Source of the DNA: Pseudomonadota bacterium
GTDB taxonomy: Bacteria > Pseudomonadota > Alphaproteobacteria > UBA8366
Length of the DNA: 64,000 nucleotides
Direction of reading: 5' to 3'
Assembly: GCA_036339585.1 (NCBI GenBank)
Contig: JAYZAS010000004.1
Span: 382,773-446,772 of the forward strand
Made by a program: the position numbers and the translations under genes. The notes below the pieces were generated by a model. The model did no database searches and was not told where the DNA came from. It was given only the letters and a program-made list of their open reading frames with translations. Every line of letters begins with the position of its first letter. Positions within the stretch are counted from its first letter, which is position 1. This document shows, piece by piece, positions 25,061-41,099 of this stretch.

Positions 25061-26239
25061 TTACTTGTAAGGGTCAGCCGCGTCTCGCAATCCGTCTCCT
25101 AAAAATTGGAAAGCAAGGACTACTAATATTACGGGTATTACCGGTAGTATCAGCCAAGGGTATAGTGCAACGACATTTATATTTTGCGCCTCATTCAGAA
25201 TTACACCCCAGCTGGTAATGGGTGCACGCAGGCCGAGCCCGAGAAAACTGAGAGCTGTTTCTGCAAGGATCATACTCGGAATAGAGAGGGTGGCAGATGC
25301 AATGAGATGGCTCAAAAAGCTTGGAAGCAAATGCCGCACAATTATTCGTTTTGGTTTTGCCCCCATGAGTTGAGCTGCAACGCAGAAGTCTTCCTCGCGC
25401 AGAGCAAGCAATTTTGAACGAACCGCTCGCGCTAACCCTGGCCAATCGAGCAAGCCAAGAATGATAGTAATTCCGATGAAAACTGATATTGGGCTCCAAT
25501 TAACAGGCAAAGATGCTGACAGGGCCATCCAAAGCGGCAGTTCTGGAAAAGAGCGAATTATTTCAATTGATCTTTGAATTACACTATCGACAAGGCCACC
25601 ATAATAACCGGCAAGACCCCCTATTATCATTCCGAGCATTATGCTGACAATGATACCAATTAAACCTACAGTCAGCGAGATACGGGCACCATAGATTATC
25701 CGTGAAAGCATATCCCGCCCCAACCTGTCGGTTCCGAGCAAAAATAATTGACCCTTTTGAGATGGACAAATTAGATGGAAAGAACCATCGAACACGCCCC
25801 AAAATTTGTAAGACGACCCGGGGTAATCTGGCGCAGAACATAAAAACCGCAAGGCATATCTATTATTTTTGTCTTCGCTATAAATCCAGCGTAGCGTAGT
25901 TAAGTCCAAGTGCACTTTTAAGCCGTAGACGAAAGGAGCCGTTAACTTGTCTTCATGGAATATTCGTATTTTTTGTGGCGGAGCGTATAGAAATTCAGTA
26001 TGACGCGTGTGCAAATTGTATGGGGCGATTGTCTCTGAGAACAAAACACTCACGTAGACAAGTAATAAAAATGTCCCCGCTATCACCGCTAACTTGTGGC
26101 GGCGAAATTTCCACCACATTAGTTGCCATTGTGAGGACATGTAAAAACGTTTTTTTTCAACGCTGATCGGTGTTTTTTTACCTTTTATAAATGGTTCTTT
26201 GCTCACATAGTGCGGCAAGCGAGCGGGCGGAATATTCAT
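25061..26239 (-). CDS. Peptide-type ABC transporter permease (DppC/OppC family)
   Basis: 392 residues, longer than the usual 300. One membrane segment near residue 50 (LAVIAGTFLLLVYVSVLF), then about 130 periplasmic residues with LLGTDRLGRDMLSRIIYGAR starting the core domain, then five more segments. The EAA loop with ALREEDFCVAAQLMGAKP and the C-terminal ALSFLGLGLRAPITSWG are characteristic. The elongated periplasmic insert resembles YejE-type permeases. It overlaps the upstream permease by 4 bases (ATGA) and is last in the long glycosyltransferase-importer run. Confidence 0.92.
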   Translation of the reverse strand: MNIPPARLPHYVSKEPFIKGKKTPISVEKKRFYMSSQWQLMWWKFRRHKLAVIAGTFLLLVYVSVLFSETIAPYNLHTRHTEFLYAPPQKIRIFHEDKLTAPFVYGLKVHLDLTTLRWIYSEDKNNRYALRFLCSAPDYPGSSYKFWGVFDGSFHLICPSQKGQLFLLGTDRLGRDMLSRIIYGARISLTVGLIGIIVSIMLGMIIGGLAGYYGGLVDSVIQRSIEIIRSFPELPLWMALSASLPVNWSPISVFIGITIILGLLDWPGLARAVRSKLLALREEDFCVAAQLMGAKPKRIIVRHLLPSFLSHLIASATLSIPSMILAETALSFLGLGLRAPITSWGVILNEAQNINVVALYPWLILPVIPVILVVLAFQFLGDGLRDAADPYK

Positions 26240-27234
26240 CGTTGGAGGCCTTTATCAAGCCTAATTCGTGGGTCGAGGGCCGCAAGTGCAAGGTCCGATA
26301 TTAGTGTACCTATTACGGTAAGAGCGGCAAGAAACATTAGAAATGATCCTGCTAAATACATATCCTGGCTTTGTAAAGCACTGAGCAACATTGGGCCGGT
26401 TGTTGGAAGGGAAAGAACAACTGAGACGATTGCCGCACCAGATACTATTTGTGGCAGCATATTTCCGATGTCTGCGACGAATGGGTTGAGAGCGCTTCGG
26501 AGGGGATATTTAAGCAATGCCCGTAGCGGCGGAAGCCCCTTTGCGCGTGCAGTTATGAAATATTGTTTTGACAACTCATCTAGCAAATTGGCTCTCAAGC
26601 GACGTATCATGCTCGCGGTTCCGGCGGTGCCTATTACGAGCACTGGAATCCAGATGTGTTGCATGACGGAGAGGGACTTCTCCCATGTCCATGGTTGATC
26701 AACGTAGATGGGGTCCATAAGCCCGCCAATTGAAATGTCAAACCAAATATGAGCAAAATATTGCAAAATAAGAGCTAACAAGAAATTTGGTGTTGCTAGT
26801 CCAATGAAACCGATAAATGTTAGGGTATAATCACCCACGGAGTACTGTTTCACGGCGGAATACACCCCGATGGGAAAAGCGATGGCCCAGGTAAAAATAA
26901 TGGTCGTTAATGAAACAATGAATGTCAGTAGAAGGCGGTCTCCTACTACATCAGTAACAGGCTTGTCATGCTCAAACGAATACCCAAAATCCCCCTCCAA
27001 CATGCCGCCAACCCAATGGAAATATTGAATGTGGAGCGGCTTGTCGAAGCCATACTGAGATTTCAAAAACTCAAGCTTTGCTTTATCTGCTGATTCGCCC
27101 CGGCTTTGAATTTCGTTAACAACACTAGTGAAATAGTCCCCTGGTGGAAGTTGTATAATTACGAATACGATGGCACTAATAGCCAGTATCGTGGGTATCA
27201 TCAAAAAGAGTCGCCGTACGATGTAGCTCAGCAT
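26236..27234 (-). CDS. Peptide-type ABC transporter permease (DppB/OppB family)
   Basis: 332 residues. Begins MLSYIVRRLFLMIPTILAI, the classic OppB N-terminus, with six predicted membrane segments. The cytoplasmic EAA loop has YFITARAKGLPPLRALLKYP. The periplasmic loop GDFGYSFEHDKPVTDVV is also conserved. It follows the binding-protein gene by 9 bases and overlaps the second permease, so both form the channel of one importer. Confidence 0.93.
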   Translation of the reverse strand: MLSYIVRRLFLMIPTILAISAIVFVIIQLPPGDYFTSVVNEIQSRGESADKAKLEFLKSQYGFDKPLHIQYFHWVGGMLEGDFGYSFEHDKPVTDVVGDRLLLTFIVSLTTIIFTWAIAFPIGVYSAVKQYSVGDYTLTFIGFIGLATPNFLLALILQYFAHIWFDISIGGLMDPIYVDQPWTWEKSLSVMQHIWIPVLVIGTAGTASMIRRLRANLLDELSKQYFITARAKGLPPLRALLKYPLRSALNPFVADIGNMLPQIVSGAAIVSVVLSLPTTGPMLLSALQSQDMYLAGSFLMFLAALTVIGTLISDLALAALDPRIRLDKGLQR

Positions 27235-27243
27235 GGGATTGAG

Positions 27244-29175
27244 TTATTTCTTCTCGCTTTTGGGTTTTAACCAAAAAGTATCGGGTTCGTAAATGCCAAA
27301 GTGTGAGCCTGGATCCCAATTGTAGATACCTTGTATTGGAACGTTTTGGAGTTTTTTACTCACAACTACCGGCTGCAAAGTTCCAGAGACAAGTCCAATT
27401 GTAAATACCTGTCTCGCATGAATCTCCAGCATTTGATGCCAAACTTGTTCACGCTTCTCCAGCGTTGTCGATTTCCTCCATTCCTGAAGAAGCGACAGCA
27501 ATTTTTTTGCGGCCGGCATATCTGGCGCAACACCGGCCTGACCATTCGTCTCTCGATACTGACCCCAGAGTGGCCATTGATACTGGGTCTGACGAGTTGG
27601 AGCTAATTCGGCAGGACTCGAAGTAACCGTTGGTAGCCCATTTTCTAGTCCGGAGAAAAGAGACATTACCGTGTCACCTGAATAAATTCGGCGGCGGATC
27701 ACGTTTCTATGCGATGGTTTGATTAGTAGTTTGATGCCGATTTTTTGCCAGCTGTCGTGCACAAGCTCTAAAACGTCGGGCTCTTCGGTGTTTTCGCCAG
27801 CAGTCTCTACAATAATTTCCAGAGGTCTACCGTCAGGGAGAAGCCGTATATTCTGAGTGTTATATCGTGTAAGGCCAATTTCATCTAATAATTGGTTTGC
27901 AAGATCTAAGTCATATTGAGCATAGGCCTCTCGGTATTTTTTCTTATAGAGCCTGCTGGCTGGTAACACAGTATTCTGGCCCTCTAATGCCTGTCCGAAG
28001 TACAGAACCCGGTTGAGTTCCCGTCTATGCACACCTAGCGATAAGGCGCGTCTGAACCTTACGTCCCGGATCAGCTGGCGCCAAACAGCGTCTTTAACGT
28101 TGAGGTTGGGATATAACGCCATATGTGCTCCCTTAGCGTTTCGCCAAAGGTGAACATTGTAGCCGGCTTTTTTTTCATTATTTTTAAGAAACGTGTAATC
28201 ATCGAACCTTAGATAGCGTGCCTGCAAATCAGCGCGCCCGGTTCCCGCCTGCGCCGGAATAATACTTTTGTCTACAATATTCATTACAATTTGATCAATG
28301 TAGGGGAGTTGGCGCCCCGCCTCATCTATTTTATGGAAGTAGGGATTTCTTTTAAAAATAAATCTCTCTGACGGTCCATTGGTAATGTTGACCCACGGTT
28401 GAAGGGTTGGAAGCTTGATATTGTTGTTCTTGTAGGGGTTGTCCAATTTGTTATGCAAAGCAGCCCAATTTCTCGCTCCCTTTTTGAGAGCATATTCTGC
28501 CAAGGTTTCTTCTGGCGTATAGCGTGCGTGGAATTTTTTCAAATAATGGGCGGGGCGAAAAATGAAAGGCGGGCGGGCGCGTGCTAAAGAGTGCAAGAAG
28601 TCAGGGTTAGGTTTAGACCAAGAAAAACGCACGGTATATTTGTCAATCACCTTGAAATCCGGGAGTTTACCATTGGCACGCATTACCTCCGGGGGGCCAG
28701 AGGGTGATAACATAGGGTTATTCGCGACGTCTTGCCAATAGTAACGGAAGTCTTCTGAGGTGAAAGAATGTCCATCAGACCATTTGTGACCGGGGCGTAG
28801 GTGGAGTGTGTAAACCCTGCCATTGCGAACTGCGACACGCCTCAAAATATCGGGTACAAGATCGAATTTCTTATTGTATTTCATCAACCTTGCGTAACCA
28901 TAAACCACAATTAGCCGTATATCTCTCGGCCTTGCCATGAGTAATTTAAGGGTGCCTCCATGGTATCCTGGACTTTGCTCTCCGCTCCTAAATGTAGTTA
29001 TGTGGGGGCTATGCGGAATTCGATCAGAAACTTTAGGAAGGGTCCCGCTTGTAACGAACTTCTCGAGCGAGGGTGTTTCAACCAGGGTTAGGGGGCGCTC
29101 AAAATTATTGCCTTTGGACTGGCCAATAGGCAAAACAGAAAAAAAAATGATCCCTAGAGATAGCAAGTTTTTCAT
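27244..29175 (-). CDS. Extracellular solute-binding protein, family 5 (peptide-type)
   Basis: 643 residues. N-terminal signal peptide with core LLSLGIIFFSVLPIG and no lipobox cysteine, so probably periplasmic. The family 5 fold is supported by YTLHLRPGHKWSDGHSFTSE, RFSWSKPNPDFLHSL and the C-terminal region with TLQPVVVSKKLQNVP. It is about 100 residues longer than DppA/OppA, like binding proteins of the Yej group. Genes on both sides encode the ATPase (4-base overlap) and permeases. The ligand is unknown; family members bind peptides, opines or oligosaccharides. Confidence 0.92.
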   Translation of the reverse strand: MKNLLSLGIIFFSVLPIGQSKGNNFERPLTLVETPSLEKFVTSGTLPKVSDRIPHSPHITTFRSGEQSPGYHGGTLKLLMARPRDIRLIVVYGYARLMKYNKKFDLVPDILRRVAVRNGRVYTLHLRPGHKWSDGHSFTSEDFRYYWQDVANNPMLSPSGPPEVMRANGKLPDFKVIDKYTVRFSWSKPNPDFLHSLARARPPFIFRPAHYLKKFHARYTPEETLAEYALKKGARNWAALHNKLDNPYKNNNIKLPTLQPWVNITNGPSERFIFKRNPYFHKIDEAGRQLPYIDQIVMNIVDKSIIPAQAGTGRADLQARYLRFDDYTFLKNNEKKAGYNVHLWRNAKGAHMALYPNLNVKDAVWRQLIRDVRFRRALSLGVHRRELNRVLYFGQALEGQNTVLPASRLYKKKYREAYAQYDLDLANQLLDEIGLTRYNTQNIRLLPDGRPLEIIVETAGENTEEPDVLELVHDSWQKIGIKLLIKPSHRNVIRRRIYSGDTVMSLFSGLENGLPTVTSSPAELAPTRQTQYQWPLWGQYRETNGQAGVAPDMPAAKKLLSLLQEWRKSTTLEKREQVWHQMLEIHARQVFTIGLVSGTLQPVVVSKKLQNVPIQGIYNWDPGSHFGIYEPDTFWLKPKSEKK

Positions 29176-31070
29176 ATTAGCTTTTGGCCCCTTTGATCAG
29201 TGTCGGCAGCTCTAACAAAATGTCCCGCGCCTATTTGGCGAAGCGTTAACTCGCTGAGACCGTCATCGCGAAACGGGCCAGGCCAGGCTGCAGGTTCAGA
29301 CGCACGCTCACCCAATAATTCATCAAAATCAAGAGGGTTTTCTAGATTAATATCCGGCACAGCTGAAATTAATTTTTGGGTGTAAGGGTGGGCAGGACGT
29401 TTGAATAGGTCTTCCTTTGAGGCAATCTCAACCAAGCGACCGCGGCACATCACCGCGATTCGATCAGCAATATATTTTACAACGGCAAGGTTGTGGGAGA
29501 CGAATAGATACGTAAGGTGTAATTCGCGTTGCAAGTCTCCAAGCAAATTGAGTATTTGCGCCTGTATTCCGACGTCAAGGGCAGACACAGGTTCGTCGCA
29601 GATTAGAAGCTCGGGTTTAAGTGCAAGAGCTCTTGCTATGCCGATACGCTGACGTTGACCTCCAGAGAAGCTGTGTGGATACCGGCCTAGTGCTTCCTTT
29701 TCGAGCCCAACCAGCCGCATGAGCTCTAAAGCTATCTCGCGTCGACTTGATCTGCTCCCTACCCTATGAATGACCAAAGGCTCAACGATGATGTCTAGGA
29801 CCGTCATTCTAGGGTCAAGCGAACTAAATGGATCCTGAAAAATATATTGTATTTTTTTTCTGAATTGGGACAATTCAGAGCCAGCAATGGCTAACACATC
29901 GATTTCGTGGCTATTATCCAAGAAAGTAAGGGATCCTTTGTTTGGTGTTAGTGCGCGTACAATCAACTTTGCCAGAGTTGTTTTGCCGGAACCACTTTCT
30001 CCAATTAGTGCCAGACATTCCCCGCGGTTAATATCAAAGCTTACTTCATTTACAGCCGTTACTGAATGGTCAAGGCTTTTCCGTAACCATTTGCTTCTTT
30101 TAAAATGAAAAATCTTATGGAGATTACGCACTTTTAAAAGAGGTTCTTCTGTGCCTATTGGTGACCGAGTGCGGGTATTCGCTGCACTAGGAGGAAAATA
30201 AACTTCATGGTTTCTCTCAATGCCATGGATGGGCTTCAAGCGTTCATTCTGACTTAAACCTATGCGCGGCACTGCCTTAAACAGTGCTTTCACATATTCA
30301 TGTTGGGGATTGCGAAAAAGATCATTGCGGGTGCCAGATTCAACAATCTTTCCATCATGAAGCACTATCACCTCATCGGCCATATTTGCAACCACACCCA
30401 AATCATGGGTAATTATTAAAACCGCCATGCCCAAGTCAGACCTTAGGTCTCTAAGCAACTTCAGGATCTGTGCCTGAATAGTAACATCTAATGCAGTAGT
30501 TGGTTCGTCGGCGATAAGCAAGGCAGGTTGACAGACGAGCGCCATAGCAATCATAGCCCTTTGTCGAAGCCCGCCCGAAAGTTCAAAAGGATAACAGTCG
30601 ACAGCATCCATCGGATTAGGGAAGCCCACTCGCTTTAACATATCACGTGTTCTACCGATGGCTTCACGATTGTTACAATTCTGATGTATTTGCAGAGCCT
30701 CTATGATTTGATCACCGATTGTGTGAAGTGGAGAAAGGGACGTCATTGGTTCTTGGAAAATCATCGAAATACGAGCGCCGCGGATACGACGCATTACTTT
30801 AGAGTTTGATTCCAATTTTGCGATATCAACTGTTGTGCCGTTTGCTGCAGGGTCAGAAAATAGGATTTGACCACTTTTAATATCTGCATTCTTAGGAAGA
30901 ATACCCATGATAGCTTCTGCGGTGACAGACTTGCCGGCGCCAGACTCACCGACAAGCGCAACGCAAGACCCGGCTTCTACCCGAAAATTTGCTTCACTAA
31001 CGGCATTAATCTTGCCCGCCGGAATATTTAGGTTAATACTGAGGTCATTAATTCGCAGCAGTTCCGTCAT
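29172..31070 (-). CDS. Fused double ATP-binding protein of a peptide-type ABC importer
   Basis: 632 residues with two complete nucleotide-binding domains in one chain, like YejF or GsiA. Domain 1: Walker A GESGAGKS near residue 40, signature LSGGLRQR, Walker B LLIADEPTTALD. Domain 2: Walker A GESGSGKTT, signature FSGGQRQR, Walker B LLICDEPVSALD. Both have intact catalytic glutamates and H-loops. A linker of about 40 residues follows domain 1, and domain 1 ends with the oligopeptide-type extension. It overlaps the downstream binding-protein gene by 4 bases and the upstream membrane-protein gene by 1 (TAATG). Confidence 0.94.
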   Translation of the reverse strand: MTELLRINDLSINLNIPAGKINAVSEANFRVEAGSCVALVGESGAGKSVTAEAIMGILPKNADIKSGQILFSDPAANGTTVDIAKLESNSKVMRRIRGARISMIFQEPMTSLSPLHTIGDQIIEALQIHQNCNNREAIGRTRDMLKRVGFPNPMDAVDCYPFELSGGLRQRAMIAMALVCQPALLIADEPTTALDVTIQAQILKLLRDLRSDLGMAVLIITHDLGVVANMADEVIVLHDGKIVESGTRNDLFRNPQHEYVKALFKAVPRIGLSQNERLKPIHGIERNHEVYFPPSAANTRTRSPIGTEEPLLKVRNLHKIFHFKRSKWLRKSLDHSVTAVNEVSFDINRGECLALIGESGSGKTTLAKLIVRALTPNKGSLTFLDNSHEIDVLAIAGSELSQFRKKIQYIFQDPFSSLDPRMTVLDIIVEPLVIHRVGSRSSRREIALELMRLVGLEKEALGRYPHSFSGGQRQRIGIARALALKPELLICDEPVSALDVGIQAQILNLLGDLQRELHLTYLFVSHNLAVVKYIADRIAVMCRGRLVEIASKEDLFKRPAHPYTQKLISAVPDINLENPLDFDELLGERASEPAAWPGPFRDDGLSELTLRQIGAGHFVRAADTDQRGQKLI

Positions 31071-31675
31071 TAGAGCCCAAGATCTCGGTATTTATCTGCA
31101 TAAGGCGTCTTTGAGTGCGGGTCGTCCTCATGGATGGTACCGAAGCCTCCCCGAAGGGCTCGAAAATTTGCCGACGTTGAAGGGTCTATTGGCACGTGCA
31201 TCATATTGGCTTTTGTCTCAATTTCATTAGCAATCTGTATAAAACCCTCAAGTGCCGAGTCAAATTTCAGTTTCTGGCTATCAGCTTCGATGGTTAACTC
31301 CATCCAACTTGCTTTATTTAATACAGTGCCTGCTTGAGGCCGATCTTTGGAGGTTGTAAAATAATATAATTTTACAGATCCTAAACGGTCCCATGTTAGT
31401 CGTTTTTTAAATATACCCCGTCTAGTCACTCCTTTTTTATCGAACTCAAAAGTAGCCCATTTTTCCTTAATCACGTGGATGCCGTACGCAAAAAAGAATA
31501 AAGTAAAGAGCCCAAAAACCCCAAACATTACTGGTCCCAAATCTGCGAAAATCATAGGCAAACCGAAGAACAGCAGCCCAACCGAAGCACGAACGAAATC
31601 AGCCACTAGGCTGCGCCTTGAATACCTGTATTTTTTAGAAACAGTGATTGATTCTGGAGGATGCGTTTCAACCAT
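31070..31675 (-). CDS. Small membrane protein with a PH-like cytoplasmic domain
   Basis: 201 residues; no named family recognised. Two hydrophobic segments near residues 27-47 and 49-70 (LLFFGLPMIFADLGPVMFGV and what follows) form a hairpin in the membrane. After it comes FEFDKKGVTRRGIFKKRLTW and WMELTIEADSQKLKFDS, with the beta-rich pattern of bacterial PH-like domains; this is a fold-level guess. It sits between a deacetylase-like gene (8-base overlap) and the importer ATPase (TAATG), so it is likely part of the same system. Confidence 0.72.
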   Translation of the reverse strand: MVETHPPESITVSKKYRYSRRSLVADFVRASVGLLFFGLPMIFADLGPVMFGVFGLFTLFFFAYGIHVIKEKWATFEFDKKGVTRRGIFKKRLTWDRLGSVKLYYFTTSKDRPQAGTVLNKASWMELTIEADSQKLKFDSALEGFIQIANEIETKANMMHVPIDPSTSANFRALRGGFGTIHEDDPHSKTPYADKYRDLGL

Positions 31676-32426
31676 TTTGGGGACTCAGTCTCATTATTTC
31701 ACGGATGCTTTTTAAGGTAACATGAGGATTCGATTGTAAAGTCTTAATAAATCGATCAACAAAATTCCAATTGTCTTCATCCATCTGTTTATGATGGGTA
31801 AGTAGGCCAGTTGGTAAAGAATATTCAGCATTCTTTCTTTTGCTTCTTAATGTCCTTACGGTATTTTGTAAGATAATTCTAGCGCCTGTGAACGTACGAT
31901 TTTTTTTCCATGATATAGGATCGATGTGGGTGTTTATGTTTTGAAGGCAACTTAACTCTTGCTTGCCGAACCCAGAAATCGCATGAAAACCTACATCAAC
32001 CAAGCAGTGGCTATGTATCATTGCAACCCTGTTCCATGGGGGAGCAAGAACGGGAAGGAATTGTGTGCCGAACATGTCCGATAGGATCTCTTTGCCGAGA
32101 GACAAATCTCTATAAACTTGAGTGCGTGTTCGATTGATACCAAATTCGCTCCTTTTAGACGGAGCAGTCTCATAATTTTTGTGAGCAAATCCGTGTTGAA
32201 TAATATCCACCTCTGTGTAGGCCCCAATGCTTTTAGCAATTTGAGGTTTTGCCATTTTGGGAATAACAGCAAGAGAGAGAGGTGCATCACGTCGCAGTTC
32301 CAAGAGGCGCTCAAACTTGGGGCCAGGAGTTTCAAGGTCGTCATCGCGCCACCAGAAACAGGCTTGGTTGCCAGCTTGACCCCACTTGTCCAATTCCCTT
32401 TCAAGGCTTAACCAATCTGACTTCAT
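31668..32426 (-). CDS. Polysaccharide-deacetylase-like protein
   Basis: 252 residues. Elements of the NodB fold are visible: FWWRDDDLE near residue 25 as the first metal/catalytic Asp motif, IIQHGFAHKN near residue 75 as the His-box, APPWNR, and GLLTHHKQMD near the C-terminus. The family removes N- or O-acetyl groups from glycans. No signal peptide, so it would act in the cytosol on a precursor. It overlaps the upstream glycosyltransferase by 4 bases. Sequence divergence from classical NodB proteins is high, so the substrate is open. Confidence 0.8.
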   Translation of the reverse strand: MKSDWLSLERELDKWGQAGNQACFWWRDDDLETPGPKFERLLELRRDAPLSLAVIPKMAKPQIAKSIGAYTEVDIIQHGFAHKNYETAPSKRSEFGINRTRTQVYRDLSLGKEILSDMFGTQFLPVLAPPWNRVAMIHSHCLVDVGFHAISGFGKQELSCLQNINTHIDPISWKKNRTFTGARIILQNTVRTLRSKRKNAEYSLPTGLLTHHKQMDEDNWNFVDRFIKTLQSNPHVTLKSIREIMRLSPQNG

Positions 32427-33562
32427 GGTGTTTCTAAGCAGTCTTTAATTTTGCGCGCAGTATTAATCGCGCCGCGGACATTTAAACTGCTTATCATCGG
32501 CGGTTCTAATGCCAGTGCTCTTCTCACGGCTGCACATAAGGTTTCAGTGTTCAATATTTTCTCATCAACTATTACTGACATTTTTCTATCGGCTAGTACT
32601 TTAGCTCTCAATGGCTGTTCTGTCTGACCATATCTACCAAACGGAACTAGAACATTTCGAACACCCGAGACCATTATGTCCATTACTGTGTTGTAGCCGG
32701 CTTGGCTAATTGAAAGTGTGGCTTTTGCAAGTAGTGCACGAAAATCGTGCCTCAGACTTTCTATCTTTATGTGTGGGGCAGGTCGGAAGCTTTCTTTGTG
32801 TGTTTGCGGGAAATTCGGTCCCGTTAATATTCTCCAACGCCAGTTTTTACCAACGCTACTCTGGGCTAGCGATAAGGCTGTCGAAATTAATAGAAAACCA
32901 GTACCACCCCCCCCAACAGAAACGACAATTTCCCCGTTCGACGTACTTTTAACTGTCTTGGCTGGCGCTGCTACGTAGCCCGTGTAGTGAAGCTTTTCCA
33001 TAATTTTAGAAGCATGTGAAAATGTATGATCTAGCTTGATGAAGTCTGCGTCTCCATGCACAAGCACTCCAGTGAAATAGCTGTTAATTATTTCAACGAT
33101 TTTTTTATTTCGCGCTGTACTTTTCTTAGGAACCAAAATATCGCGAACCGAGCAAAATATCGGCCCAACTCGTTTAGCGCGCTCAAGAAGTGGGGAAATT
33201 TCAGAACGAAATGACCATCGACCAAACGGAAAACTCTCAATAAGCGTTAAGTCTGGTCTAATTTTCTCATAAGCGTCAAGAATCACCTTCCGTCTATTAT
33301 TTCTCCAAGCCTCATCTACCTCCGCTCCAGTTTCATCGACTACTCTCGAGAAAGAGGCATCTGCTGAGAGAGCTGCAGGAAGTTGGAGGATGTTTGTTGT
33401 GCCGGGATCAAACAGTGCATTCGGAGCACCTCCATTGACTAAAGTAACATCGAGGCCTGATTTGGTCATTTCTTTTGCTATCAACGCAGCTCGCATTGAA
33501 TGCCCAATGCCGAGAAGGTGTTGAACGTAGAAAAAGACCTTTTTTTTTCTCATTGAAGCCAA
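32423..33562 (-). CDS. GT-B glycosyltransferase (MurG-like C-terminal domain)
   Basis: 379 residues (start may be Met4). The N-terminal half begins KVFFYVQHLLGIGHSMRA with the HxxGxGH-like pattern of GT28-type enzymes. The C-terminal nucleotide-sugar-binding half has IVVSVGGGGTGF, then ISQAGYNTVMDIMVSGVRN and LVPFGRYGQTEQPLRA, as in MurG/YjiC-like transferases. Its closest resemblance in this window is the gene at 36555-37790, which has the same architecture. Acceptor and donor unknown. Confidence 0.85.
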   Translation of the reverse strand: MASMRKKKVFFYVQHLLGIGHSMRAALIAKEMTKSGLDVTLVNGGAPNALFDPGTTNILQLPAALSADASFSRVVDETGAEVDEAWRNNRRKVILDAYEKIRPDLTLIESFPFGRWSFRSEISPLLERAKRVGPIFCSVRDILVPKKSTARNKKIVEIINSYFTGVLVHGDADFIKLDHTFSHASKIMEKLHYTGYVAAPAKTVKSTSNGEIVVSVGGGGTGFLLISTALSLAQSSVGKNWRWRILTGPNFPQTHKESFRPAPHIKIESLRHDFRALLAKATLSISQAGYNTVMDIMVSGVRNVLVPFGRYGQTEQPLRAKVLADRKMSVIVDEKILNTETLCAAVRRALALEPPMISSLNVRGAINTARKIKDCLETP

Positions 33563-33583: not shown

Positions 33584-34177
33584 CTAGAGGTCTTGAATCA
33601 TGGGCAGATCTAACTGTTGGACGCTTGGTGTACCATCTTTCGCAAGCTCAAAGAGATGGACACAGTCGTCTTTCAACTTCTGGGGAGGTTTACTTGTCAT
33701 GTCCCAGTTTATTGAAAGAGCGTAGACGGCGCGGATTACCCCTTTGTGACAGACTGCGAGCGTGTTTTTCTTTGTTTTAGCTCTCTCACGCATGAATGGT
33801 TTTAATCGTTGTTGCACTTCCCGGGGGCTCTCTCCACCAGGCGCTCTGAAATCTAATCCTTTTGCCTCCCATGCTTCCATTAGGTTTCCAAGCTCAGAGC
33901 GAAGCTCATTTAACGATCTGCCTTCCCACTCGGACCAGTTCATTTCGACTAACCGATCGTCTGTGGGTATGCTCTTCCCAAAAAGAGCCCTTGCCGTTTC
34001 TTTTGCCCGGATAAGCGGGCTTGATACTATAAAAAAATCCTTAACTTCGTCAGGCACACGCCAATTACCTACTTGCATTCTGCCTTTTTTGCTCAACGGG
34101 ATATCGCTGCGGCCTTGTACTAATTTGTTCTCGTTCCAACTCGTTAAGCCGTGCCGCACTAAAGCTAGAATTGTCAT
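33584..34177 (-). CDS. Histidine phosphatase family protein (phosphoglycerate-mutase-like)
   Basis: 197 residues. The N-terminal ALVRHGLTSWNE carries the RHG motif with catalytic His9, and the second RH-like block is VCHKGVIRAVYAL. Also SSPLIRAKETARALFG and EMNWSEWEGRSLNELR. The family covers sugar-phosphate phosphatases (for example alpha-ribazole phosphatase) and mutases; a sugar-phosphate substrate fits its place between glycosyltransferase genes. Gaps are 2 bases upstream and 21 downstream. Confidence 0.9.
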   Translation of the reverse strand: MTILALVRHGLTSWNENKLVQGRSDIPLSKKGRMQVGNWRVPDEVKDFFIVSSPLIRAKETARALFGKSIPTDDRLVEMNWSEWEGRSLNELRSELGNLMEAWEAKGLDFRAPGGESPREVQQRLKPFMRERAKTKKNTLAVCHKGVIRAVYALSINWDMTSKPPQKLKDDCVHLFELAKDGTPSVQQLDLPMIQDL

Positions 34178-34179
34178 GT

Positions 34180-35298
34180 TTACCGCCCTACTTGACGTTG
34201 GCTAAGAATCCAATTTAATTTTGTGGCAGCCGTATCAAGGTTATGATGCTTTGAAATCCGGTGTATGGATTCTGCACCGAGTTCTTTGCAATGGTGCGGG
34301 TCGTTGAGTAATAATCGAAAATAGTATTCGAAATCTGTCGGGTTCCCCTCTTGGCACAAATAACCATTCGCACCATTTTTGATAAATTGCTCTAAGCCGG
34401 GTCTTTTGCTGGCAAGAACAGGTAAGCCCGACGCCGCCGCTTCTAAAAGTGCCATGGAACAGCCTTCCTTAAGGGCGGGCCAAGCCGTGAAGTCTCCCGC
34501 CGCGTAAAGTTCAGAAAGAGAAGAACCAAATAGAGTTCCGAGAAACCTTATATTATCAAATCCCTCGAACCAACCCCCTACTTTGGCCCGGACTGTCCCG
34601 TCACCGGCGATCAGTAGGGCCCATTTTCGATCGCGGAGTTTCAGTGCACATTGCGCCAGCAATTTATAAGATTCGGCCTTTATGTCCTCACGCATCATAG
34701 CGACTGTAACGACCCATGGAATATGTGTAGGTAGCTTTAGAGCTGTTGAGAGGCGCCGTCTTGCTCTTTCGCGCATTGGTGGAGTTATTTTGCGCTGGCG
34801 TACGAATGGTGGCATCATAAAAAGTTTGTGACCACACATTAGGTCATGCCGCAGGCTATCAACATCTAGCGGATCGAAGCATATAAGCTTATTTGCACGC
34901 AGGATTGCGTTCTTGGCTTCGGCAAAGCCCGGCGCCCATGGGCCACTGGTTTGTTTTGCAGCATAACTTGCGTCGGCCACCACGTAAGGTATGCCAAAAT
35001 AATCTGACAAAGCTGGCCCGATCAGATCAGGGGCTTTGTGGTAAAGGTGATAAGTAAACCAAACATCCGGGGGTGTTTTCGTTAACTTGCAGATCGCGCG
35101 TTCCCGGGCATATTCGGCTTTTGCTGCGATTTCCAACCACCGATGCCCATAACGGTCATAGCTTCTGAAGTGCGAGGCCAGCGTTACTTGATGACCGGAA
35201 TTTTTCAGTGCACGCACGATGAGGCGAGCAAAACTTCGATCACCCGAAGGGTTTGGGTGATTGGGTGATTTCATGGGCGCATAAAACGCTATTTGCAT
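34180..35298 (-). CDS. Glycosyltransferase, GT4 family
   Basis: 372 residues, GT-B fold. N-terminal IAFYAPMKSPNHPNPSGDRSFARLIVRALK matches group-1 transferases in pieces, and the C-terminal donor site has WALLIAGDGTVRAKV and EGCSMALLEAAASGLPVLAS (the EGxxxxxLEA motif). Probably retaining. It lies 2 bases from each neighbour. Donor sugar unknown. Confidence 0.9.
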   Translation of the reverse strand: MQIAFYAPMKSPNHPNPSGDRSFARLIVRALKNSGHQVTLASHFRSYDRYGHRWLEIAAKAEYARERAICKLTKTPPDVWFTYHLYHKAPDLIGPALSDYFGIPYVVADASYAAKQTSGPWAPGFAEAKNAILRANKLICFDPLDVDSLRHDLMCGHKLFMMPPFVRQRKITPPMRERARRRLSTALKLPTHIPWVVTVAMMREDIKAESYKLLAQCALKLRDRKWALLIAGDGTVRAKVGGWFEGFDNIRFLGTLFGSSLSELYAAGDFTAWPALKEGCSMALLEAAASGLPVLASKRPGLEQFIKNGANGYLCQEGNPTDFEYYFRLLLNDPHHCKELGAESIHRISKHHNLDTAATKLNWILSQRQVGR

Positions 35299-35300
35299 AT

Positions 35301-36545
35301 TTAAATTTTTTCAGTTGAACTGCCGGATAAAAGTCGTGCTAGCTTATCGAGGTTCTGTTCTGTATCAAAACGCATTCTAACTCGCTCTTCGCCTGCTTTG
35401 CCAAATTTGAAACGTAGGTCGGGCGAGGTTATGAGGCTAACTAAACCTTCTTGGAGTGCTAACGGATCGTTTGGCGGGACTAATATACCCGTTTCCGAGT
35501 GAATAATAAATTCCGGAATAGCCGAAATGTTTGTTGAAACAACTGCTAGGCCCTGGCTCTGAGCCTCCATTAGAACGTTTGGCAGTCCGTCTTGATTACC
35601 GTCATTATCGCGTCGACAAGGAAGAACAAAAATGTCTGCCTGTCGGAGTGCTTTAATTACCTTGTCAGAGTTTTGTACCCCGCGCCAATGTATATGATCT
35701 GATATACCAAGCAATTTTGCATGGTTCTTCAATGTTTTGGTGTAAGGTCCGTCGCCAATATGTGTCCATTCCCAACAAAGATTATCTGGCATTAACGCTA
35801 ATGCTTCCAAAAGAACATCAAACCCCTTTTTTGGGACGGTGCGGCCAACTGAGATTAATCTTGCTGGAGGATTTGATGGGGTTCCATCATTTTTTGATAC
35901 ATGCAATTTACGGGGTCTAAATTTCTCAAGGTCAAGTCCGTGATAAAACATGAATACTTTTGACGGATCTTTTGCGAGCGATCGCAACTTAGCTGCTCCT
36001 ACCTTGGAGCAAACGGTCGTCCATTCAGCGCTATTAATTTTTTCGGCCAATTCCCAGTCAGGGCATGTCCATATATCAACAGCGTGAGCTGAAAGGGAGA
36101 GTGGTAATCCTCGCATAACTGATGCGTACCGCGCGACTGAAGCTGGCGTATGTAGAAAATGAGCGTAAATTTTGCTGATATTTGGCCCCACTTCGTTGGC
36201 TACAATACAAGCTTGTAGAAAACGGCGAATTCGATTCCGCGTCCTATCACGGGCGAAATCCTGCAGGAATACCCGGATCGCCGCTCTATAGCCGCCTAGT
36301 TTACGTGCTTTAAACCAACCAAAAAAGGCGCGGCTCAGCTCGGTATGGATGTATTCGGGTAAGTATCTTATTGGAGCCTTGATCTCAGCATGGATGGGGT
36401 GCGTAATTGATTCTGTTGGTCGTCGGAGAGAAACCAGCTCAATTTGTAATCCGCGGCGCTCTAGGCCCCTAATTTCTTGCGATATAAAAGTCTCTGTAAG
36501 GCGTGGATAACCTTTCACTACAATTAGAACAGTTTTCCTAGTCAT
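35301..36545 (-). CDS. Glycosyltransferase, GT4 family
   Basis: 414 residues, GT-B fold. N-terminal VLIVVKGYPRLTETFISQEI is typical of the colanic-acid-type WcaL/AmsK group. The donor-binding half shows LISVGRTVPKKGFDVLLEAL, then DIFVLPCRRDNDGNQDGLPN followed by VLMEAQSQGLAVVST. The EDGLPNVLMEA-type motif is complete. It is 2 bases upstream of the next GT4 gene and 9 downstream of the first gene of the run. Confidence 0.92.
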   Translation of the reverse strand: MTRKTVLIVVKGYPRLTETFISQEIRGLERRGLQIELVSLRRPTESITHPIHAEIKAPIRYLPEYIHTELSRAFFGWFKARKLGGYRAAIRVFLQDFARDRTRNRIRRFLQACIVANEVGPNISKIYAHFLHTPASVARYASVMRGLPLSLSAHAVDIWTCPDWELAEKINSAEWTTVCSKVGAAKLRSLAKDPSKVFMFYHGLDLEKFRPRKLHVSKNDGTPSNPPARLISVGRTVPKKGFDVLLEALALMPDNLCWEWTHIGDGPYTKTLKNHAKLLGISDHIHWRGVQNSDKVIKALRQADIFVLPCRRDNDGNQDGLPNVLMEAQSQGLAVVSTNISAIPEFIIHSETGILVPPNDPLALQEGLVSLITSPDLRFKFGKAGEERVRMRFDTEQNLDKLARLLSGSSTEKI

Positions 36546-36554
36546 CTCGCCAGC

Positions 36555-37790
36555 TTAACCTGAAGCATTAATTAAACTGGAACTGTTCCTAGCCGGCCAA
36601 GTTGGTTCCAAAAGTTTTTCGGCATGGTGATTTAATTTGGTGAATCCGTCTAGAATTCCTGGAATAATTTGCGTACTAGGGACTGGTTGCCGTGGCAGGT
36701 GCTTCAATGCTGTGGCCATGGAGTCCGGTTGAGAGGTGGTTTGAATGTCAACCATCGAAATGAGTCCAAGTTGATGAGCACGCTCAGCTCTAATCAATTG
36801 TTCTCGGCGCGGTGCGGTGCGCGGCAAAACCAAGGCCGGTTTGTCAAAGGAGAGAATTTCGCAGAAAGTATTGTAACCACCCATTGCTACGACTGCCACG
36901 GCTTCGCTCATAATATTTTCCATCCGCTTATCGAACGTTAAAGTGGTAACACGGGCGATATTTTGAGATCTACGCGCAAAAGCACGTTGTTGCTTCCGTG
37001 GCATTAACGGGCCCAAAATGACTAAAGCTGGGTATGGTATAGAGTCATCTATTTCGTACGCTCCCATAATGGTATCAACAAAATTAGCTCCGTCACCACC
37101 ACCGCCAGGTGTCACCAGAATAAAGTTTTTGCCTATAGACTTTTTAATTTTATTTAAGCTGGGCATACATTCCGCCGTTGCCGAGGCGGTTCGGCGAAGA
37201 TAGCCCGTATAAACGATTTTTTTGTGTATTGTTTTTGGCAGATCGAGCCTTGATAACGGCTCATAGATTTCTGGAATTCCGTAAATCCATATTTCTGAAT
37301 AGAGATGTTCAAGAGCTATTGCAGCATTCTTTTGCTGCCATTCCCATTTAAGTTTTTCAGGATCGTCAAGAACATCGCGTAAACCAAGTACGCAGGGGAT
37401 ATTTACAGAGTTAAGTCGTCTAAGGGTGCTTTTAATCTCACCTCCTAGCCCCAAGGGTTCTTTATCAACGATGAATAAGTTTGGCTTAAACGCACACGCA
37501 GTTTGATAGATAATTTCAGTTCGGCGCTTTAAAGTTGCATCTAAAGAGGCTCTTTTATCATGAGATGTGTATCGCCCGGAGGAAAGTTTTTTTATGCACG
37601 GTATTGAAACAACCTTTATTTGTTGGTCGAAACTGAATTGTGCCAAAACTGGCGATCCAGATATTATTAAAACTGATAAATCCTTATGATTGGTAACAAG
37701 GGCTTTGGCTATTGCAGCACTGCGGCGCAGATGTCCAAGACCGAACGTGTCGTGACTGTATATTAATACTCGGTTTGAAGAATGTTGCAC
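36555..37790 (-). CDS. GT-B glycosyltransferase (MurG-like), first gene of the run
   Basis: 411 residues. VLIYSHDTFGLGHLRRSAAI at residues 8-27 is the N-terminal glycine-rich loop of GT28/MurG-like enzymes. The C-terminal half has FILVTPGGGGDGANF, VVAMGGYNTFCEILSFDKP and LVLPRTAPRREQLIRAERA. The N-terminal 'GLGHLRR' form is known in proteins annotated only as predicted glycosyltransferase. This is the promoter-proximal gene of the eleven-gene minus-strand run that ends at 25061. Confidence 0.84.
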   Translation of the reverse strand: MQHSSNRVLIYSHDTFGLGHLRRSAAIAKALVTNHKDLSVLIISGSPVLAQFSFDQQIKVVSIPCIKKLSSGRYTSHDKRASLDATLKRRTEIIYQTACAFKPNLFIVDKEPLGLGGEIKSTLRRLNSVNIPCVLGLRDVLDDPEKLKWEWQQKNAAIALEHLYSEIWIYGIPEIYEPLSRLDLPKTIHKKIVYTGYLRRTASATAECMPSLNKIKKSIGKNFILVTPGGGGDGANFVDTIMGAYEIDDSIPYPALVILGPLMPRKQQRAFARRSQNIARVTTLTFDKRMENIMSEAVAVVAMGGYNTFCEILSFDKPALVLPRTAPRREQLIRAERAHQLGLISMVDIQTTSQPDSMATALKHLPRQPVPSTQIIPGILDGFTKLNHHAEKLLEPTWPARNSSSLINASG

Positions 37791-37980: not shown

Positions 37981-40626
37981 ATGGAACCTTCAATTTTTAA
38001 ATACGTTTTTCGTTACAGCTCCAAGCAACAATTGTTTTTGGTGCTGGTGATAATATTGTACTACCCCTTTCTCTACATATCTCTTGAATTGCCAAAACTA
38101 ATTGTCAACAAGGCAATTGAGAACGATGACGGTGGCCCGCCTTTTGATTTTTATATTTTTGGTTTTGACATCCAATCCGGGCTCGAGCAGATAACATTCC
38201 TTGTAGTGCTTAGCGTACTGTACCTCGGTGCTGTTTTTATCAATGGTGGGTTCAAATATTACATTAACGTATATAAAGGTCGAATGGGAGAACGATTGCT
38301 TCGGCTCCTGCGATATCAATTATATAATCGAATATTACGGTTTCCCCTTCCGCAGTTCCGAAAGGTCAGTCAGGGGGAGTTAATTCCAATAATTACCGCA
38401 GAAGTTGAACCGCTAGGCGGCTTCATAGGAACTGCCTTTGCAGATCCCCTATTTTTTGGCGGTCAATTAGTGATTATTATTACCTTTATAGTTTTCCAAG
38501 ACCCGGTTCTAGGAGTTGCGGCTATCTCACTTTACCCAGCTCAGGTTTATCTCATTCCGAGACTACAGCGTAAAGTTAATGCGTTAGCTAAGGCCAGAGT
38601 GCTCAACGTTCGGCGGCTGTCAGACCATATCAGCGAGTCGGTGTCCGGAATTATCGAGGTGCACTCCCATAATGCAAGTCAGTATGAGTTGGCAAAATTT
38701 GCCAGTCGCCTAGCTCGTATTTATGACATTCGCCACGAGCTTTTCCGACGGAAATTTTTTATAAAGTTTCTCAATAATTTTATTGATAAGTTAACACCAT
38801 TCTTTTTCTTTTCTATTGGCGGGTATCTTGTAATTCAAGGTGAACTGACATTTGGCGCCTTGGTCGCAGTACTCGCAGCTTATAGAGAATTGGCGGCCCC
38901 ATGGAAGGAACTACTCTCTTGGTACCAACAAAAAGAGGATATACGCATAAAATACCAACAAATTGTCGAGCAATTCGATCCGCCGAATATTACCAAACCA
39001 GAATTGATCCTAGAAGCGCCGCCGAAGATCCCGCACTTGCAGGGGGATATTGTAGCTAATGTAAGCTTGTTCGATGAGAACGGTGTCTTTAATTTGAAAG
39101 ATACAAGCTTGAGTATACCGCTCAATCAACACGTCGCCGTTCTCGGCAACGTGGAGAGTGGAAAGTCGGAACTGGCTATGTTGTTGGCACGACTTATCAA
39201 ACCAAGTCATGGGAAAATCACTATAGGTGGTCAGGATACTGCGCTTATGCCCGAAGCAATAACAGGCAGACGCATTGCTTACGCCGGTCCTAATGGACAT
39301 CTGAATAGCTGCTCTATCCATGAAAACTTAGTTTATGGGTTAAACCATATCACCAAGGGAACGCCGGTTTTAGATCTGCACAAAACATTAAACTCTTCTG
39401 CAGATGTCAAAACGCATAGTTTGGGCAGTCCAGACTGCTTATGTGAATCCGATTGGATTGATTACTCAGCCGCGGGAGTTGCAGGGCGGGAGGAGTTACA
39501 TGCGCGCATTTTGGAGGTTTTGAAGGAAGTTCAACTGGACCGTGAAATTTATAAAATCGGTTTACACGAAAAGATAAATCCAATTCATCAGTCTGACATT
39601 TCTGACAAGATGATCATTGCTCGCAAAGTCTTGCAGGAGCGGCTGAGTTCGAACGCGAACCTTGCAAAATTTGTCGAACTTTTTGATAAGGACCTTTACA
39701 ATTTAAACGCAACCGTGGGAGAGAACTTACTTTTTGGCACGCCATTGAACCACCAATTCAAGGCTGAGGGAGCCGCTGAGCAGGAATGTATTAGGGCAGT
39801 TTTGGATGATCACGGTCTTACCGACGCTTTTCTCGAGATAGGGAAAAAAATTGCCGAAACAATGATCGAGCTTTTTTCCGATTTGCCACCGGAGCACGAA
39901 TTTTTTCAAACTTATAGCTTTATTTCTTCAGAGCAATTGCCAAACTTTCAACAGCTAGTAGCCCGAATTGCTGGGGGAAACATAATTGAGGAAAAGGACA
40001 GAGTTAAGCTTTTGTCTCTACCGTTTCAGTTAGCTCCAGCCAGACATCGCTTGGGGCTGATAACGAAAGAGCTTCAGGCTAAAATCTTAAGCGCACGGCA
40101 TGCACTTTTAAATGATATGCCGGCGGAGTTGGCAGAGGGCGTCTCATTTTTTGAAGAAGAACGATTTAATCCCGAAGTTTCAATACAGGAAAATATATTG
40201 TTCGGCAAATTAGTCCACGGTTTTGCTGCAGGGGAAGAACAGATTGGAAATGCAATCACAGAGATTATTGATGAGCTTGATCTGCGTGGAGCCGTCATAT
40301 CGGTGGGGTTGGGTTCGCAAGTTGGGGTTGGGGGGGCTTTACTGTCCGGCGCCCAACGCCAGAAAATCAGCATTGGTCGCTGTATAATTAAGAATCCAGA
40401 CTTATTGATACTTGATGGAGCTATTGACACCCTAGAAAAGAAATCACAGGAAGAGATAATAGAGAAAATTCTTCTCAGCAGGACTGGACGCGGTATTATC
40501 TGGGTAATGAACACACCGCATCGGCTCGACCTTTTTGATCATGTGGTCTTGATGAAAAATGGCAGTATCGTAAGGCAAGGATCACCCGATTCTATGGCTA
40601 AGCATGTCAACGCGGAGGGTTCGTAG
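37981..40626 (+). CDS. ABC exporter-like protein with split, degenerate ATPase domain
   Basis: 881 residues. Residues about 20-330 form a six-helix exporter transmembrane domain. The ATP-binding domain starts with a normal-looking Walker A GNVESGKS (389-396), but the Q-loop position reads YAGPNG. The gap to the signature LSGAQ (788-792) is about 300 residues longer than normal, and Walker B is LLILDGAID with Gly813 where the catalytic glutamate belongs. The segment E-N-(L/I)-x-(Y/F)-G occurs three times, at 448-453, 581-586 and 737-742. ATP hydrolysis is therefore doubtful. It lies 190 bases from the divergent glycosyltransferase run and just upstream of a cyclic-nucleotide-binding-domain gene. 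Confidence 0.88.
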   Translation: MEPSIFKYVFRYSSKQQLFLVLVIILYYPFLYISLELPKLIVNKAIENDDGGPPFDFYIFGFDIQSGLEQITFLVVLSVLYLGAVFINGGFKYYINVYKGRMGERLLRLLRYQLYNRILRFPLPQFRKVSQGELIPIITAEVEPLGGFIGTAFADPLFFGGQLVIIITFIVFQDPVLGVAAISLYPAQVYLIPRLQRKVNALAKARVLNVRRLSDHISESVSGIIEVHSHNASQYELAKFASRLARIYDIRHELFRRKFFIKFLNNFIDKLTPFFFFSIGGYLVIQGELTFGALVAVLAAYRELAAPWKELLSWYQQKEDIRIKYQQIVEQFDPPNITKPELILEAPPKIPHLQGDIVANVSLFDENGVFNLKDTSLSIPLNQHVAVLGNVESGKSELAMLLARLIKPSHGKITIGGQDTALMPEAITGRRIAYAGPNGHLNSCSIHENLVYGLNHITKGTPVLDLHKTLNSSADVKTHSLGSPDCLCESDWIDYSAAGVAGREELHARILEVLKEVQLDREIYKIGLHEKINPIHQSDISDKMIIARKVLQERLSSNANLAKFVELFDKDLYNLNATVGENLLFGTPLNHQFKAEGAAEQECIRAVLDDHGLTDAFLEIGKKIAETMIELFSDLPPEHEFFQTYSFISSEQLPNFQQLVARIAGGNIIEEKDRVKLLSLPFQLAPARHRLGLITKELQAKILSARHALLNDMPAELAEGVSFFEEERFNPEVSIQENILFGKLVHGFAAGEEQIGNAITEIIDELDLRGAVISVGLGSQVGVGGALLSGAQRQKISIGRCIIKNPDLLILDGAIDTLEKKSQEEIIEKILLSRTGRGIIWVMNTPHRLDLFDHVVLMKNGSIVRQGSPDSMAKHVNAEGS

Positions 40627-40634
40627 AGCAATAC

Positions 40635-41099
40635 ATGGATACGGATATTAATGAAGAGGTTTCTCTACTCAGAAAGATACCGCTATTCGAGAATGTTGAA
40701 TTGGCTAAACTTAAACTTCTTGCTTTTACTAGTGAAAGATTGATTTTCCAGCCAGGGCAGGTTGTATTCAAACAGGGCGAGCTTGGCGATGCCGCTTACT
40801 TAATTCTCAATGGTGAAGCCCGCGTTACTGTTGAAGGGCCGAGCGGTGAACTGGAACTCGCTAGAGTGCGAGAGCAGGAGATTGTGGGAGAAATTGCGAT
40901 ACTGTGTGATGCACCGCGCATAGCTACGATTATTGCGGAGACTGAATTAAACACACTTAGAATCAGTAAAGACTTCTTTCTTAGCCTTATAGAAGAGTTT
41001 CCCAAGGTAGCGATTCAAGTTATTCGTGAACTGGCGCGAAGACTACAGTCGTCAAATTTGCAATTGCAGTCTATTAAAGCAAGAAGGCTAGACGGTTAA
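40635..41099 (+). CDS. Stand-alone cyclic-nucleotide-binding-domain protein
   Basis: 154 residues, a single Crp-type beta-barrel domain. The phosphate-binding cassette is IVGEIAILCDAPRIATI, and GQVVFKQGELGDAAYLILNGEA is the first half. There is no C-terminal DNA-binding helix-turn-helix, so it is a ligand sensor rather than a classical Crp. It begins 8 bases after the ABC protein stop and is probably cotranslated with it; control of the ABC protein by a cyclic nucleotide is inference. The 254 bases downstream to 41353 contain no gene I support. Confidence 0.86.
   Translation: MDTDINEEVSLLRKIPLFENVELAKLKLLAFTSERLIFQPGQVVFKQGELGDAAYLILNGEARVTVEGPSGELELARVREQEIVGEIAILCDAPRIATIIAETELNTLRISKDFFLSLIEEFPKVAIQVIRELARRLQSSNLQLQSIKARRLDG

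Follow-up and report, generated by a model that had tools for sequence, protein, structure and literature searches.

A conserved alphaproteobacterial relative of ABC exporters with a degenerate, internally repeated ATPase domain and a cyclic nucleotide-binding partner

The window analyzed here is a stretch of 64,000 nucleotides from an alphaproteobacterium of the GTDB lineage UBA8366 (assembly GCA_036339585.1, contig JAYZAS010000004.1, positions 382,773 to 446,772 of the forward strand), and its subject is a gene for an ATP-binding cassette (ABC) exporter-like protein, hereafter the window protein (Table 1). Read from the sequence, this protein combines a broken catalytic center, a repeated segment of the nucleotide-binding domain (NBD), and a conserved membrane domain with a near-constant partner, a cyclic nucleotide-binding (CNB) protein. 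The fold is that of a known ABC exporter; as a machine, the family departs from it in a modified form, with an ATPase degenerate throughout, repeats inside the NBD, and a CNB protein as partner. The favored interpretation, given a probability of roughly 0.4, is that the protein is no longer an ATP-hydrolyzing pump and instead acts as a nucleotide-gated clamp that passes a glycoconjugate as a flippase or channel.

By fold, the window protein is a half-molecule of a type IV ABC exporter. Pfam ABC_membrane matched residues 69–299 (9e-22), ABC_tran was recovered as two pieces (the best at residues 372–473), and matches to NCBIfam and Protein Data Bank (PDB) entries placed the C-terminal half of the NBD at approximately 720–875. 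An AlphaFold2 (AF2) model with a mean predicted local distance difference test (pLDDT) score of 81.6 was superposed with VIA-align on exporters and on the ComA NBD (Z of 26–28). The NBD fold was complete around a large insertion, as judged from the match to the ComA NBD (3vx4; Z 28.3, root-mean-square deviation [rmsd] 1.9, 235/239 residues), and Pfam and VIA-align together placed an NBD fold after the ABC_membrane domain. With type IV exporters such as ABCB, MsbA, TmrAB, and P-glycoprotein, the family shares this architecture and the order Walker A, Q-loop, signature, Walker B, H-loop; it differs from them in lacking the catalytic residues, in carrying an insertion of approximately 305 residues that contains repeats, and in having a membrane domain that is better conserved than the NBD.

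A preliminary description, made from the DNA sequence, had reported that Walker A is kept, that the Q-loop Gln is lost, and that Gly813 replaces the Walker B Glu, and had judged the ATPase probably inactive. Walker A was found intact, and alignment with P-glycoproteins bore out the other two assignments, with Pro437 at the Q-loop position. Six canonical positions (Walker A Lys and Ser/Thr, Q-loop Gln, Walker B Asp and Glu, and H-loop His) were scored in a family alignment of 56 rows and in a control alignment of a canonical exporter with 12 rows. All six residues were present in 12/12 control rows and in 0/56 family rows. The window protein keeps three and does not score as a functional ATP-hydrolyzing exporter. 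Across the family, no row kept five residues, four were kept in 4 rows, three in 17, two in 16, one in 14, and none in 5. The Walker A Lys was present in 32 rows and the Mg-binding Ser/Thr in 11, the latter position being acidic in 39 (Asp in 26, Glu in 13). The Q-loop Gln was found in 12 rows, the Walker B Asp in 8 (Asn in 36 and Ser in 10), the Walker B Glu in 34, and the H-loop His in 16. The signature was partly preserved (Leu in 55/56 rows, Gln in 52/56). Another 23 members were likewise degenerate, of which 20 came from a draw across the phylum. Collectively, these patterns indicate that the ATPase is very probably inactive throughout the family, which extends the earlier judgment beyond the window protein. 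Gly813 itself did not hold up as the defining, conserved lesion: Gly occupied this position in three rows (the window protein, L002, and L041), and the Glu is retained by many more rows than is the Asp that precedes it. The replacement was present in 3/3 species examined of the window's genus, and its confinement to that genus and row L041 marks it as one among several ways in which the site was broken.

The distribution of conserved positions is also unusual. Over the 56 rows, mean pairwise identity was 0.61 in the membrane domain, 0.40 in the NBD half that holds Walker A, 0.45 in the insertion, and 0.43 in the C-terminal NBD half; positions at least 95% conserved numbered 68/330, 2/106, 23/305, and 10/108, respectively. 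The family was then compared with the control exporter in 12 genomes where both proteins are near full length. Family identity was 0.64 in the membrane domain and 0.45 in the NBD core, with the membrane domain higher in 65/66 pairs, whereas the control gave 0.54 for the membrane domain and 0.65 for the NBD, with the NBD higher in 59/66 pairs. Conservation is inverted relative to the control exporter, a comparison that is not a formal criterion of a functional exporter.

The insertion lies within the NBD and is conserved across the family, and its length agrees with the approximately 300 extra residues proposed previously between Q-loop and signature. The motifs ENLVYG, ENLLFG, and ENILFG were confirmed at residues 448, 581, and 737. 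In 20,000 shuffles of the window protein, one copy of an ENLxxG-type motif occurred in 31 and two or three copies in none. The proposal that the region after the Q-loop was tandemly duplicated and then drifted was examined by profile–profile comparison of blocks of the 56-row alignment (a 21-row version gave a like picture), and it stood for copies 2 and 3 and found no support for copy 1 outside the motif. Block 528–655 aligned with block 684–811 over 81 columns with a score of 87.3 (E 4e-15 as a single comparison; the highest of 40 column shuffles scored 19.7). Block 395–522, which contains the native Q-loop, scored 31.6 over 11 columns with 528–655 (best shuffle 15.7) and 34.4 over 32 columns with 684–811 (best shuffle 23.5). 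By these profiles, duplication is clear for copies 2 and 3, and copy 1 is linked to them solely around the ENLxxG motif; repeat 1 as a full copy has no profile support beyond it. AF2 monomer models were built from partly shared alignments for the window protein and for a family member fused to its CNB partner. In both, a similar order, helix (ENLxxG)–helix–helix–signature-like helix–strand, occurs three times. The third unit closes with the NBD's own signature helix and its Walker B strand, and copy 2 has extra helices. The segment from just past the Q-loop to approximately Walker B thus appears to have been repeated.

The insertion might instead be an unrelated regulatory domain in which the motifs arose by convergence. 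Such an origin would explain why repeat 1 (456–562) scored 12.8 against a canonical NBD profile (best shuffle 18.1) and shows no similarity beyond the motif, why repeat 2 scored 32.0 over only 13 columns of that profile (best shuffle 16.5), and why no PDB match or shared Pfam match was obtained for the insertion: a search of PDB sequences with residues 490–760 at E 1 came back empty, and among 29 members no two shared a Pfam family there. Both searches compared sequences, and the fold of the insertion may still be a known one. An origin by convergence is nonetheless quite unlikely, given that copy 3 leads directly into the signature of the NBD, that its alignment with copy 2 is the strong one described above, and that a similar order of helices and strands recurs three times in the models.

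Matches to the window protein were found in 39/39 genomes searched, its own included, a count that also takes in ordinary exporters. In 30 of these, again including its own, the match covered most of the 881 residues, at 36–89% identity outside its own genome. Six genomes (G002, G016, G025, G031, G035, and G037) had fragments alone; the gene is split in two in G002 and G035, and the G035 orthologue (L032) falls in two frames of 613 and 304 amino acids. No specific match was found in three of the 39 genomes (G021, G024, and G030, which are 65–81% complete). A profile of the insertion matched 31 of 398 genomes drawn from the phylum, comprising the window's own and 30 labeled as the same class. 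Named genomes were represented by the best 80 of at least 557 relatives, a set that for this reason leans to close relatives; members occur in Azospirillum, Sinorhizobium, Rhizobium, and SAR116. By these matches, Alphaproteobacteria as a class conserve the gene together with its insertion. On plasmids of Rhizobium, Sinorhizobium, Azospirillum, and roseobacters, those full-length or membrane-domain matches that have annotations are named either "ABC transporter ATP-binding protein" or "transmembrane domain-containing protein"; under the former name they are counted as ATP-driven pumps. Two loci labeled Anaerolineae (L072) and Gammaproteobacteria (L087) have the typical alphaproteobacterial arrangement and are perhaps misbinned or mislabeled. 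Three divergent genes (L187:1434-4022, L193:1956-4802, and L195:539-3586) join a repeat-bearing NBD to a different, weakly matching membrane domain.

This distribution bears on whether the gene is simply an ordinary exporter that was recently inactivated, or an assembly error. The missing catalytic residues, and nothing else, speak for that explanation, which is so improbable as to be nearly negligible: the Walker B change is common to three species of the genus, and the insertion, partner gene, and cluster are conserved. An assembly error or pseudogene was also rejected on the near-full-length frame in the 30 genomes and the class-wide presence of the gene. The preliminary description had allowed for a local error, in which case orthologues would carry the Glu and lack the repeat; in fact, the Glu stands in 34/56 rows, but the Asn and final Gly of motif copies 2 and 3 are almost invariant (Table 1), the Walker B Asp is kept in only 8/56 rows, and conservation of the insertion excludes a local assembly or sequence error.

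Attention had previously been confined to the ABC protein, overlooking the CNB gene immediately downstream, which is fused to it in some lineages. The CNB gene is adjacent or fused at 122/125 loci (105/105 and 17/20 further loci). Among the best 80 of at least 557 relatives, it lies within −133 to +112 bp downstream in 75 and is a C-terminal fusion in two; in the other three it is inside a longer overlapping frame (two) or 619 bp away (one). Copies truncated by contig ends or broken in frame (L003, L030, and L032) and homologues consisting of the membrane domain only are excluded from these counts. All seven relatives of 1,006–1,045 amino acids examined in the first set were C-terminal CNB fusions, one of them cut by a contig end. 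The window's CNB protein carries a CNB domain (PF00027) with a phosphate-binding cassette that contains Gly-Glu and Pro-Arg. Because this cassette is intact, a nucleotide-sensing site is preserved where the ATPase site is lost. The protein matched cNMP_binding alone above the Pfam cut-off, with no Crp/Fnr helix-turn-helix. Two rhizobial partners (L113:12242-12709 and L119:16809-17273) are annotated as transcriptional regulators (Crp/Fnr). Immediately following the cassette Arg, 91/105 sequences have Thr and the window's protein has Ile; such a Thr is a pattern of cyclic GMP-binding kinases and was not used as evidence.

Upstream, and on the opposite strand, lie genes for glycosyltransferases and an oligopeptide-type importer (Table 1). 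Their conservation was counted at 47 loci with full flanks, all within the best 80 of at least 557 relatives, each place being given to its best bait. Four types of glycosyltransferase were present at 37 loci, three at 9, and two at 1. A looser count, in which related baits cross-match, gave 44, 46, 47, and 46 loci for the glycosyltransferases and 39 for the importer ATPase. Linkage to glycan genes is, on this gene order, a feature of most close relatives. In four Azospirillum loci the importer ATPase lies downstream instead.

Table 1. Positions in the window of the ABC gene, its motifs, its partner, and the neighboring genes (loci are those with full flanks)
Feature	Coordinates	Strand	Remarks
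Two importer permeases (25061-26239 and 26236-27234)	25061..27234	-	
Importer solute-binding protein	27244..29175	-	SBP_bac_5
Complete double ATPase, oligopeptide-type importer	29172..31070	-	Same place and strand at 31/47 loci
Conserved 252-aa protein	31668..32426	-	41/47 loci; no Pfam or NCBIfam match
Glycosyltransferase with GT28 C-terminal domain	32423..33562	-	45/47 loci
Histidine phosphatase superfamily protein	33584..34177	-	45/47 loci
Glycosyltransferase group 1 (GT4 type)	34180..35298	-	47/47 loci
Glycosyltransferase group 1 (GT4 type)	35301..36545	-	46/47 loci
Glycosyltransferase with GT28 C-terminal domain	36555..37790	-	39/47 full-flank loci; divergent from ABC gene
ABC exporter-like protein, 881 aa, predicted pseudo-ATPase with enlarged NBD	37981..40626	+	Intact open reading frame; Pfam
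Transmembrane domain, residues 1-330	37981..38970	+	Best-conserved part of the 56-row alignment
Walker A GNVESGKS (389-396)	39145..39168	+	Intact in window protein; degenerate in most relatives
Q-loop position, Pro437 and not Gln	39289..39291	+	P-glycoprotein alignment
Repeat motif copy 1, ENLVYG (448-453)	39322..39339	+	
Insertion, approximately residues 456-760	39346..40260	+	Conserved; in NBD, between Q-loop and signature
Repeat motif copy 2, ENLLFG (581-586)	39721..39738	+	Asn at second position 56/56, final Gly 55/56
Repeat motif copy 3, ENILFG (737-742)	40189..40206	+	Asn and Gly both 56/56
ABC signature LSGAQ (788-792)	40342..40356	+	
Walker B LLILDG (808-813)	40402..40419	+	Asp812 present; Gly813 replaces catalytic Glu
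H-loop position, Asn844 and not His	40510..40512	+	P-glycoprotein alignment
Stand-alone CNB protein, 154 aa	40635..41099	+	8 bp past ABC stop codon; Pfam cNMP_binding 5.4e-20
Phosphate-binding cassette of CNB protein, GEIAILCDAPRIAT	40887..40928	+	Gly 105/105, Glu 99 (Asp 6), Arg 105/105

In the proposed mechanism, the NBD would serve as a clamp holding the membrane domain by its coupling helices, and the repeated ENLxxG element would be the piece that docks on a coupling helix, as in CFTR. F508 and G509 of CFTR are taken here to be the FG of its ENIIFG motif. According to the available part of PMC3776845, both residues belong to the coupling-helix-4 binding site of NBD1, so the repeated ENLxxG piece would be the part that holds the membrane domain. 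On binding a cyclic or other nucleotide, the CNB protein would shift the clamp and thereby open or close the membrane domain, which would give a glycolipid or oligosaccharide, the product of the neighboring glycosyltransferases, passage through the inner membrane with no hydrolysis of ATP. In favor of this mechanism are the family-wide loss of catalytic residues, the complete NBD fold, the repeat, the inverted conservation, the homologues made of the membrane domain alone, the CNB partner, the linkage to glycosyltransferases, the cyclase of the rhizobial clusters, and the two cyclase-domain matches of the window genome. The wider proposal, that these are class-wide, cyclic nucleotide-gated ABC proteins acting as flippases or channels for a surface glycoconjugate, analogous to CFTR and independent of it, is doubtful.

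Several observations weigh against the clamp interpretation. The substrate, the transport, and the nucleotide binding are predictions from genes alone, and the link between repeats and coupling helices would be an analogy of motifs, the models being monomeric and without predicted aligned error. The window protein may still bind ATP, since Walker A and the Walker B Asp are retained. The CNB domain may bind a ligand other than a cyclic nucleotide, and cyclic AMP should not be assumed, because the CNB domain of HetC binds guanosine tetraphosphate (ppGpp) in the portion of PMC10986499 that was accessible. In the window genome, class III cyclase domains are matched twice and CNB domains six times, and neither cyclase match lies in the ABC cluster; no CNB gene was found in the approximately 6 kb around the divergent L187, L193, and L195. 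Around a fused member in Ruegeria, none of the glycan-cluster baits and no importer were found, so the inferred substrate may not apply to the whole family. Several membrane-only homologues adjoin genes for a copper chaperone, cation efflux, a P-type ATPase, cytochrome c, or a universal stress protein, and such metal and cation neighbors point to other cargo.

Whether the protein acts as a channel, a flippase, or a scaffold, the options named in the preliminary description, is a question on which all three fit the evidence and the evidence does not separate them. A scaffold would move nothing and would relay the state of the CNB protein to the importer or the glycosyltransferases, as a regulator of the sulfonylurea-receptor type does. 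The loss of catalysis, the tie to the CNB partner at 122/125 loci, and the linkage to glycosyltransferases and to the importer ATPase (31/47 loci) are what would be expected of it. A passive anchor is harder to reconcile with a membrane domain that is the best conserved part and has many invariant polar residues, features more in keeping with a path or a ligand site, and the importer does not adjoin the Ruegeria fused gene; a signal-transducing scaffold is viewed as somewhat unlikely. Another arrangement would preserve ATP-driven export by making the protein one half of a hetero-complex in which an ATPase-competent partner supplies the catalytic site. There is good precedent for exporters in which one site is degenerate (PMC12038006 and the structural matches), the signature is partly retained, and the seven PF00664 matches in the window's genome, the window protein among them, leave room for a partner elsewhere in the genome. 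Even a hybrid site would miss one half, however, since Walker A (Ser/Thr in 11/56 rows) and Walker B (Asp in 8/56) are both broken in most rows, and the NBD half that holds Walker A is nearly devoid of highly conserved positions (2/106). No second exporter half was recognized beside the gene at three annotated loci; in R. etli, a 443-amino-acid "ABC transporter permease" approximately 3 kb away gave no match to the membrane domain at E 1e-10. A hetero-complex is regarded as unlikely.

Parallels to the nucleotide-gated clamp exist among known systems. CFTR (ABCC7) resembles the family in its degenerate site, in a regulatory input besides ATP, and in an ENxxFG element, a likeness of design and not of descent. 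It differs in keeping one hydrolytic site (PMC3776845, in the part available) where the family residues are lost; no homology to its regulatory domain was seen in the window protein, and channel activity of the family is predicted only. HetC is the nearest precedent found for an exporter controlled by a CNB domain: in the accessible part of PMC10986499, that domain is required and binds ppGpp, and ATPase catalysis is essential. The same source places the HetC CNB domain at the N terminus together with a C39 peptidase, whereas the family CNB is separate or C-terminal and the window protein had no C39 peptidase match in Pfam. NHLM-type exporters also include a CNB domain. PglK and other ABC flippases for lipid-linked oligosaccharides share the ABC fold and offer a plausible substrate class; PglK-type flippases are ATP-driven. 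The model of the fused member superposed on PglK (6hrc) with Z 23.8 and rmsd 3.6 over 426 aligned residues, a match without functional weight, since many exporters match equally well. SbmA/BacA is an ABC exporter-like membrane domain that works without an NBD. The window protein had no SbmA_BacA match in Pfam at E 1 and differs in keeping an NBD and an ABC_membrane match.

If the clamp interpretation holds, a common alphaproteobacterial protein would be an ATP-independent device under second-messenger control, and an ABC protein would have a second route, besides that of CFTR, out of the pump cycle. The repeated docking element would make it possible to test directly how NBDs push on membrane domains, for which the fused and split CNB forms are ready constructs. 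Many rhizobial adenylate cyclases and CNB proteins are without assigned targets, and the family may provide a membrane target for them.

Homologues of the membrane domain that lack an NBD (L023, L024, L025, L026, L115, L117, and L118) may represent an NBD-free, ABC-derived transporter family. They comprise proteins of 382–440 amino acids at 39–44% identity and a farther set at 25–28%, and of the seven scanned, L023 and L025 fell under the Pfam ABC_membrane cut-off. A descent like that of SbmA was rejected, the only indication being a weak SbmA_BacA match in L025 (E 0.023, below the cut-off). In a quick tree, fusion to the CNB domain requires two changes, and the membrane-only rows were joined at a support of 75, which does not establish a single origin for them.

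No description of the family was found in the open-access literature; most subscription papers were outside this scope, and a description elsewhere is possible. In S. meliloti, SMb20813, a candidate for the family member on pSymB, is termed the msbA homologue in the available part of PMC10945364. The accessible part of PMC5539429 ties SMb20804 and SMb20805 to capsular polysaccharide, their nearness to the gene being judged from numbering alone. The portions of PMC5498481 and PMC6180224 that were available held nothing bearing on the S. meliloti homologue.

Of the remaining neighbors in the window, the conserved 252-amino-acid protein resembles a polysaccharide deacetylase by eye, without Pfam support, and the permease at 26236-27234 matched oligopeptide permease models below their cut-offs. 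What the importer carries may explain the locus as a whole, and a YejBEF-type muropeptide importer of Agrobacterium, described in the accessible part of PMC9790009, is a lead only. The importer recurs in the R. etli pA and S. meliloti pSymB clusters, where its ATPase is 55–57%, its solute-binding protein 46–48%, and its permeases 60–66% identical to those of the window. Both clusters keep three glycosyltransferases (38–48%), the ABC gene, and the CNB gene, with an adenylate or guanylate cyclase added.

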